The notes below the pieces were generated by a model. That model was given only the letters and a program-made list of their open reading frames with translations, ran no database searches and was not told the origin of the DNA. The translations under genes and the position numbers were made by a program. A stretch of DNA of 64,000 bases from Beroe forskalii (lineage: Eukaryota > Ctenophora > Nuda > Beroida > Beroidae), in NCBI GenBank assembly GCA_011033025.1, contig WFMF01000186.1, positions 62,001 to 126,000 of the forward strand, in the 5' to 3' direction. Every line of letters begins with the position of its first letter. Position 1 is the stretch's first letter. Positions 48,001 to 51,000 of this stretch are shown piece after piece.

Positions 48001-51000
48001 TATATTACTCAGATTGGTCAGATGGCGGACTGGCAGTGGGAACGAAGAACGGAATGATTTATCTCAAAAAACATTATATAACGGAAAGTTGCGCAAAATT
48101 AACATCAGGCGACGTGTGAGGAAAGGGAAGCATATTGGAGAGAACTTGAAGGATGGAAATCAAAAATTTGTTGTAGGTTTGATAGGCCGAAGCCTGAAAA
48201 ATAAAAAGGCAAAATGAAAAAACAGGTCACTGAAATTGGGACTGTTTTGCAGCTCATTACCCCAAACTATTTGACGAAAAACGGTCCCAAACTCACAGGT
48301 CTTTTTTTAATCTGGGTGCGCACTTACCATGCCTTCTTCCCATGGTACATTTTATACATTACACGGTATATAAGGTACATGGTCTGAAATCTATTGACGA
48401 TTACTGGCACAAAGATTAATTTCGACCCACTGCTCGCGGCACATACCGACCTATAACCAACGCTACACATCCCTCACATACCTTCCTCTCTCCACATACA
48501 ACTCTCAATTACTCTCACTAAGTCCAGCACAACTCAACTTGATTGATTATTTGAAAGACACCCCACCTGGGATAACATATCACAGAGTTAGAGGGACAGG
48601 CTTAACACAGCCACTGCCACACTTACCACAGGGATCAAGGTAGTCAATCTTCGGAGGGGCGCCCCCGACACATTTGCTCATTGCTGCCCGTAAGGGCAGT
48701 ATCACCCGGTGCCTGGTAAGGGGTTCTACAAGCTAGCAGTGCAGCCGGGTGGGTCCCAGCAGAATGCTCCGCCATGGAGGGTTGCCATCACATCCCGAAA
48801 GAGATGGCAATGGTCAGTGGATTTTGCCAGAAAAAAAATGATCCGGAATACACAACACCCCGTACATTTGTTGGAGATTGCCCTACACACTGCAATGTAA
48901 TTCATGGCAGATACAGAGTCTGACCGACTGCCTTCAATTAGCGAGGACACACTAAAACATCTCTCTCCGCACGCGTAGTGTGTGTACACACAGGTAATTT
49001 CACTGGCAATGATCTACTTGAGATGTCGTACTTACAGGGTTCTACGCTAGAGCTGCCGTACTTACGGGGTTGTACGCTAGAGATGCCGTACTTACAGGGT
49101 TGTACGCTAGAGATACCGTACTTACAGGGTTGTACGCTAGAGATGCCGTACTTACAGGGTTGTCGTACTTACAGGGTTGTACGCTAGAGTGCCGTACTTA
49201 CAGGGTTGTACGCTAGAGTGCCGTACTTACAGAGTTGTACGCTAGAGATACCGTACTTACAGGGTTGTACGCTAGAGATGCCGTACTTACAGGGTTGTAC
49301 GCTAGCGATGCCGTACTTACAGGGTTGTACGCTAGATATGCCGTACTCTCAGGGTTGTACGCTAGAGATACCGTACTTACACTTTACAGGGTTGTACGCT
49401 AGAGATGCCGTACTTACAGGGTTGTACGCTAGAGATGCCGTACTTACAGGGTTGTACGCTAGAGATGCCGTACTTACAGGGTTGTACGCTAGAGATGCCG
49501 TACTTACAGGGTTATACGCTAGAGTTGCCGTACTTACAGGGTTGTACGCTAGAGATGCCATACTTACAGAGTAACGCTAGGGATGCCGTACTAACAGGGT
49601 TGTACGCTAGAGATGCCGTACTTACAGGGTTGGTGTACTTACAGGGTTGTACGCTAGAGCAGTACGGTATGCGTTGATAGCTTGGTCCAGGTCCCTTGCT
49701 GCAACCAGAGCAGCGGCCAGGTTGATGTACCCATCGATAAAGTCAGGTTTCAGTCTCACTGAAAAATACACAGGTTGATATACCCATCGATAAAGTCAGG
49801 TTTCAGTCTCACTGAAAAATACACAGGTTGATTTACCCATCGATAAGGTCAGGTTTCAGTCTCACTTATAAATACACAGGTTGATGTACCCATCGATAAA
49901 GTCAGGTTTCAGTCTCACTGAAAAATACACAGGTTGATTTACCCATAGATAAGGTCAGGTTTCAGTCTCACTGAAAAATACACAGGTTGATTTACCCATC
50001 GATAAGGTCAGGTTTCAGTCTCACTTAAAAATACACAGGTTGATGAACCCATCGATAAAGTCAGGTTTCAGTCAAACTGAAAAATACCCAGGTTGATTTA
50101 CCCATAGATAAGGTCAGGTTTCAGTCTCACTGAAAAATACACAGGTTGATTTACCCATCGATAAAGTCTCACTTAAAAAATACACAGGTTGATGTACCCA
50201 TCGATAAAGTCAGGTTTCAGTCACACTGAAAAATACCCAGGTTGATTTACCCATAGATAAGGTCAGGTTTCAGTCTCACTGAAAAATACACAGGTTGATT
50301 TACCCATCGATAAGGTCAGGTTTCAGTCTCACTTAAAAATACACAGGTTGATGAACCCATCGATAAAGTCAGGTTTCAGTCACACTGAAAAATTTGATTT
50401 ACATAGATAAGGTCAGGTTTCAGTCTCACTGAAAAATACACAGGTTGATTTACCCATCGATAAGGTCAGGTTTCAGTCTCACTTAAAAATACACAGGTTG
50501 ATATACCCATCGATAAGGTCAGGTTGATATACCCATTACCCATCGATAAAGTTTCACTTTTTAGTCTCACTGAAACCTGACTTACACAGTCCATTATCTA
50601 ACTTACACAGTCTCGGCTGTCGCGTTGACCAAGTAACTTGCCGTATACGGTCACCACTTCGACATGAAACCACTTTAAACACGTACCAATACACCATCGT
50701 ACCCACATATTTAAAATATGCAATCAGACTGCCAATCACACACGAATACAATTTTACATTATCTTTGTAAACACCTGTCTTCCAAATTAATAACAGTATT
50801 TGATTATGAAGTCTTGGGCATTTGGTGTATGTATCATATCTGAGATATCAACCCTCAGAAAAATACAATACATCGTACATAACACAATATTGCTGGATGT
50901 ATCTGCGTGTATGTTATTTAATTTCTCCGCTAAGTAATTTTGACTCTTGAATCACGTGTGTTACGAGGAACTATTGAGCTACATACGTTAGAAACACGTA

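Follow-up and report, generated by a model that had tools for sequence, protein, structure and literature searches.

Tandem arrays of splice sites flank OGT exon 3 in the ctenophore Beroe forskalii and have the anatomy of amphioxus mirages

Tandem repeats that lie over exon/intron boundaries were given the name 'mirages' in amphioxus (PMC3087553; PMC3902484). The globin genes BflGb6 and BflGb9 carry them, and the globin paper also cites Adh3, attributing the Adh mirages to Canestro 2002 (PMC3087553). A further study adds a mirage in PGBD5 and cites one in TnC (PMC3902484). As far as the available portions of these papers go, the repeat units are 10-160 bp long, they span the exon/intron boundary at 5′ or 3′ boundaries, and they copy the AG or GT found there, a signal that is kept in many, though not all, copies (PMC3087553; PMC3902484). 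The globin paper includes RT-PCR experiments, refers to somatic instability at Adh3, and states that mirages seem not to upset regular splicing (PMC3087553).

Related designs are known from other genes. In human OGT, a decoy exon that holds several weak 5′ and 3′ splice sites keeps intron 4 detained (PMC12017769). A tandem duplication that crosses an intron/exon boundary can give rise to a new intron (PMC4974935). The VCBP genes of amphioxus carry complete or partial exons in their introns that resemble the adjacent exons, some of them with canonical splice sites (PMC2632668). A huntingtin paper (PMC2206037) and a paper on minisatellites in C. elegans (PMC4039745) were also considered and, judging by their available text, have no bearing on the arrays described here.

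In this work we analyse a stretch of 64,000 nucleotides from Beroe forskalii (contig WFMF01000186.1, positions 62,001 to 126,000 of the forward strand; hereafter the window), in which exon 3 of OGT is flanked on both sides by tandem copies of its own splice sites. Judged from the genomic sequence, these arrays are mirages in the anatomical sense and would add a second animal phylum to amphioxus. A preliminary description of this DNA knew of no named element with such a design; the mirages of amphioxus do show it, as far as the papers that name them describe it (PMC3087553; PMC3902484). Among the matches listed in the open-access literature we found no report of mirages in ctenophores. With the Beroe arrays, an extreme case of the kind, mirages would be known from two animal groups as far apart as lancelets and comb jellies.

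Two arrays at one OGT exon

Most or all of the OGT gene lies on the minus strand, between about 54.1 and 36.0 kb of the window, and 18 of its exons were recognised. Exons 2 to 13, twelve in succession, join in frame and encode 645 residues. The start of the gene and the exon 1/2 splice sites are not fixed, and 'exon 3' is counted from the first coding exon that can be recognised. The exon is 116 nt long, between introns 2 and 3 of 1350 and 3535 nt. Among the best 120 of 1002 database matches the top identity is 79%, and in a tree of OGT sequences the query sits on a long branch, without clear placement. A COX1 gene of this genome, on contig C1134 (13,339 bp) and read with TGA as Trp, shows 100% identity over 507 residues to a protein of Beroe forskalii, phylum Ctenophora; on these two comparisons, amphioxus was rejected as the source of the DNA. 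When the genome (216 Mb, 1134 contigs) was searched with exon 4 there was one full match, plus two weak ones that both fall within the OGT gene, and hence nothing to indicate that the genome holds another OGT gene. The features of the locus, together with the arrays found elsewhere in the genome, are collected in Table 1.

Table 1. OGT exons and junction arrays in the Beroe forskalii genome (positions are those of the window; arrays in other genes are given by locus)
Feature	Position or locus	Strand	Remarks
OGT exon 2 (start not fixed)	51109..51226	-	Its donor has to join the real acceptor of exon 3
Acceptor array (mirage): 14 decoy units of 53 bp, two of them shortened, plus 2 ragged AGs upstream	49759..50572	-	Three-unit higher-order repeat; the real acceptor is the final copy
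Real OGT exon 3 (encodes one TPR repeat)	49643..49758	-	From translation against PDB OGT chains, residues 116-154; reading frame shared with 11 further exons
Donor array (mirage): about 20 decoy donors, 30-bp unit, mostly GTAAGTAC	49020..49642	-	First copy is the real donor
OGT exon 4	45922..46107	-	Its acceptor has to join the real donor of exon 3
Second mirage: 82-bp unit, three decoys of the exon 11 acceptor	39328..39586	-	2/3 keep AG, one has TG
OGT exon 11	39126..39327	-	From the exon model
Third mirage: a single decoy for the acceptor of exon 17, with its first exonic base at 36794	36641..36835	-	Real acceptor at 36640, 154 bp further downstream
OGT exon 17	36470..36640	-	From the exon model
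CCT-gamma acceptor array	L033		
CCT-gamma donor array, second gene copy	L035		
PSMB5-like proteasome subunit acceptor array	L042		
Kinase donor array, two decoys	L048		

On the acceptor side there are 17 AG anchors including the real one, that is 16 decoy AGs, of which the two ragged ones upstream are at positions 50570 and 50557. The spacing is exactly 53 bp in 11 of 14 cases, and TRF reports a 53-bp period repeated 15.6 times. Each unit combines 12 intron-derived with 41 exon-derived bases. The preliminary description was therefore right to count about 14 copies of a 53-base unit, two of which prove to be shortened, while its figure of about 35 exon bases per unit was too low. The units fall into three types that follow each other in a repeating order, forming a higher-order repeat of about 159 bp, and one decoy unit, at 49918, agrees with the real unit at 53/53 bases. 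A junction-by-junction search recovers 13 local copies that span the acceptor (best E 3e-41), and AG is kept in 15/15 aligned units, the real one included. The 25-mer at the core of the acceptor has seven exact matches in the genome, counting the real site, all of them at OGT exon 3. The array also contains 14 copies of CTGAC, 12 of which lie 37 nt before the next AG; we take this to be a branch-point-like motif that could serve as a branch point. Together with eight copies of the donor-like GGGTAAAT inside the same array, these motifs may make up candidate pairs of 3′ and 5′ sites within intron 2.

The donor side is built in the same manner from a shorter unit. Downstream of the exon there are 21 donor anchors including the real one, spaced by 30 bp in 14/20 cases, and TRF finds the 30-bp period in two blocks of 15.5 and 4.8 copies. 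One listed decoy has GA in place of GT, and an extra, doubled donor near 49388/49381 stands outside the list of 21. Nine of the 20 listed decoys match the real donor letter for letter over 25/25 bases, and GT is kept in 18/19 aligned units (again with the real one). The same search gives 16 local copies spanning this junction (best E 1e-28), and the core 25-mer has ten exact matches in the genome, the real site among them, all at OGT exon 3. Anchors and TRF thus bear out the initial estimate of about 20 copies of a 30-base donor unit. The design as first described, an exon between two arrays of its own splice sites, holds in its coordinates as well, and each array is continuous with the real acceptor or real donor that it copies. 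With spanning copies at these E values, the arrays are not a product of chance. A dispersed element as the source of the units was also considered and rejected, as exact matches to the core 25-mers occur only at this locus.

How do these arrays compare with the known systems? As in amphioxus, the units span the exon/intron boundary, both at exon 3 (the 13 and 16 copies above) and at exons 11 (three copies) and 17 (one copy), and many copies, but not all, retain the AG or GT: to the 15/15 and 18/19 at exon 3 can be added 2/3 of the exon 11 decoys. The Beroe case differs in that the host is a ctenophore, both boundaries of one exon are amplified, there are about 36 decoys, and a three-unit higher-order repeat has formed. 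That the host is not a cephalochordate we read as a matter of distribution, outside the definition of a mirage. The likeness to the human OGT decoy exon lies in the gene itself, in the surplus of splice sites, and in the non-productive mRNA that would follow from their use (PMC12017769). The human decoy, however, is a single exon of about 150 bp in a detained intron (PMC12017769), whereas the Beroe arrays copy the sites of the real exon. Paired decoy sites within one intron may exist in Beroe, as the acceptor array holds the donor-like GGGTAAAT; the donor array sits in the other intron.

The remaining systems share single traits with the Beroe arrays. Intron gain by tandem duplication also involves the crossing of a boundary, but there it made a new intron (PMC4974935). 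In Beroe the copies are located within introns 2 and 3, beside one intact exon; 12 exons remain in frame, and OGT showed no new intron. The partial exon copies of VCBP, unlike the Beroe arrays, are not described as arrays over one junction in the available part of that paper (PMC2632668). Human segmentally duplicated genes similarly contain internal tandem repeats, and minisatellite expansion alters gene structure in recent paralogues, but in the text at hand these repeats are not defined by copies of splice junctions (PMC2812944).

Across the OGT gene, 4 of the 34 junctions are spanned by local copies, namely the acceptor and donor of exon 3 and the acceptors of exons 11 and 17, against arrays on 13.9% of the gene's intron bases. 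The three clear arrays with units of at least 30 bp all touch a junction. A further array with an 18-bp unit, about 108 copies over some 2 kb (window 40355-42314), occupies most of intron 8; it does not span the exon 9 acceptor, stopping 26 nt before it.

Splice-site choice at exon 3

Each of the 17 acceptors was combined with each of the 21 donors, and the resulting exon was translated together with exons 2 and 4 on either side. The reading frame stays open in just 1 of the 357 pairs, the innermost one. A stop is also met when exon 3 is skipped or when intron 2 or intron 3 is retained, and the decoys of exons 11 and 17 likewise lead to stops. The listed donors from 49596 outward and the readthrough of intron 3 all run into one and the same stop, so a donor near 49388/49381 would do so too. 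Since every other tested choice puts a stop into OGT, the protein requires the innermost sites. The frame therefore suggests that the real sites are the ones in use and that the decoys would be silent in the RNA.

Some of the decoys are identical to the real sites letter for letter, hence the choice between them must come from context. The most likely basis is exon definition, in which the closest pair of acceptor and donor across the 116-nt exon would win. Exon definition predicts the use of the innermost sites, which are those that the gene needs, whereas a choice of the shortest intron predicts the outermost sites and would destroy OGT. As some decoys equal the real sites in sequence, their usage in RNA would gauge how well context alone can steer the spliceosome.

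Junction arrays in other genes

In order to place the OGT arrays in the context of the genome, we surveyed conserved Pfam families. Loci with at least two exon matches close together were chosen by eye and not by their repeats, with the exception of L035, which was included on account of the array in its twin L033. The survey covers 70 junctions in chaperonin and proteasome genes (L031-L043) and 42 in HSP70 and kinase genes (L044-L056), 112 altogether; the chaperonin clusters on C691, C826, C184 and C447 and a proteasome match on C269 were left out. Outside OGT, the edges of HMM matches served as junctions and were inspected by eye only if a TRF array lay close by, a procedure that may overlook arrays that are short or diverged. 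The searches identify the Pfam families, whereas the names CCT-gamma, PSMB5 and PSMA2 are our presumption from the translations.

Clear spanning arrays were found at 3/70 junctions in the first group and 1/42 in the second, giving 4/112 (95% interval 1.4-8.8%), or 3/102 (1.0-8.3%) when L035 is set aside. A number of near-misses were left uncounted, as they adjoin a junction or are unclear and have no clear copies: the acceptor of CCT-gamma copy B, L044, L049, L055, L040 and a second array in L048. These results suggest that mirages are common in this genome. Are they more frequent at junctions than elsewhere? Arrays with a period of at least 20 cover 12.4% of intron bases (intron counts being approximate), and junctions spanned by arrays number 7/104 when judged by hand (95% interval 3.3-13.2%), so in this small sample no excess at junctions over introns is seen. 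TRF flags 6/104 junctions, one of which is merely abutted by its array, and misses two of the OGT cases.

Two arrays of other kinds were met in the course of the survey. In the PSMA2-like gene of L043 (C84:3200-4300), a 67-bp unit present in 3.9 copies (842-1101) lies over the apparent start codon and the first nine or so codons. As this is not a junction, what unites these arrays may be the edge of a coding stretch and not a splice site as such. At C232:147707-149090 (L012), a 102-bp array and a degenerate 64-bp array share an acceptor-like TTTCAG; the 102-bp array (147707-148613) is also open in frame and may be either a mirage or a coding repeat, and it was not counted.

A pair of CCT-gamma-like genes shows how such arrays can change. 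The two copies, A (L033) and B (L035), are two loci on one contig (C558), inverted and about 36 kb apart, and they align at 84% over 2683 positions and at 95% over 621 positions. A single donor in copy A corresponds to three in copy B, within sequence that can otherwise be aligned, and this donor array reads as a gain, probably made after the copies separated. The reverse holds for an acceptor that is present four times in copy A and once in copy B; here either a gain in A or a loss in B would fit, as B keeps a stub that resembles the unit. The differences between the copies point to local change of arrays after gene duplication.

Origin of the arrays and other repeats of the window

The reading that we favour, with a probability of about 0.8, is that these are mirage-type minisatellites in Beroe, grown by duplication, and that the innermost pair of sites, chosen by context, is the one that is spliced. 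A short tandem duplication would once have crossed each boundary of exon 3, probably by way of a few bases of microhomology, and unequal exchange or slippage may then have expanded it, the acceptor array growing later in blocks of three units. Such growth can be tolerated because the copy that is joined to the body of the exon stays intact. We hypothesize that this genome often undergoes tandem duplication and that the duplications over a coding edge survive, the innermost copy keeping the exon whole. The arrays themselves would then be neutral. The lack of an excess at junctions favours neutral minisatellite growth over a regulatory device, and OGT exon 3 is not special, since arrays of this sort also occur in other genes and at two further OGT exons, 11 and 17. 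Taken with the differences between the CCT-gamma copies, this makes neutral growth, seeded separately at each junction, the better supported of the options raised in the preliminary description. Two observations count against it: the presence of two arrays on one exon would be unusual if arrays are rare, and in OGT each of the three clear long-unit arrays is in contact with a junction. In addition, the high retention of the splice dinucleotides at exon 3 points either to a recent origin or to selection for working decoys.

In a rival reading the arrays would be a device, with parts of the spliceosome engaging the decoys without splicing, slowing the removal of introns 2 and 3 and so tuning the level of OGT. 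The decoy exon in human OGT intron 4 offers a precedent (PMC12017769), a stop follows from every decoy choice tested, and the CTGAC and GGGTAAAT motifs provide candidate 3′/5′ site pairs within intron 2. That said, other genes and two more exons of OGT (11 and 17) have comparable arrays, junctions show no excess, and the arrays differ between the two CCT-gamma copies, all of which leads us to consider a device of this kind unlikely. A regulatory reading is worth testing given what is known of human OGT, yet regulation is an unlikely reason for the arrays to be there. It is a distinctly long shot that both arrays act as a splice-site sponge, which would keep the OGT pre-mRNA of Beroe unspliced or non-productive as an independent counterpart of the human decoy exon, its strength set by array length and so varying between animals. 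We regard as similarly improbable a mutational process aimed at splice junctions, for example through R-loops or microhomology of the splice signals, that would make mirages commoner there. All three clear OGT arrays with units of at least 30 bp and the exon 17 duplication touch junctions, and junction arrays recur in unrelated genes; against this stand the figures of 7/104 junctions versus 12.4% of intron bases, and of 4/34 versus 13.9% in OGT, although a modest preference is compatible with a sample this small, and the proteasome gene array over a start codon, which is no junction. Least probable of all is an assembly artefact in which one copy of each junction was inflated into an array. 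The number and length of the arrays do rest on one assembly, but fixed variants distinguish the units, there is a higher-order repeat of three units, and independent, shorter arrays exist at other loci.

The window contains several further repeats. Tandem arrays of 160-162 bp lie in opposite orientation about 3 kb apart (16562-17207 and 20377-20922), and similar pairs are found at C232:53766-56954 and 172796-176229, with open reading frames between them, as if they were mobile elements with tandem-repeat ends. Two 13-bp arrays, again in opposite orientation (60181-61295 and 63032-63663), flank about 1.7 kb. Telomere-like CCTAAC/TTAGGG repeats occur inside the contig, at window positions 12189-12277, 12391-12481 and 33334-33410, and a run of 100 N, either a gap or sequence that was withheld, is at 33456-33555. 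Beside OGT there is a long open frame (56265-57878, minus strand) that looks by eye like a chromatin protein, presumably of the BAZ1 type.
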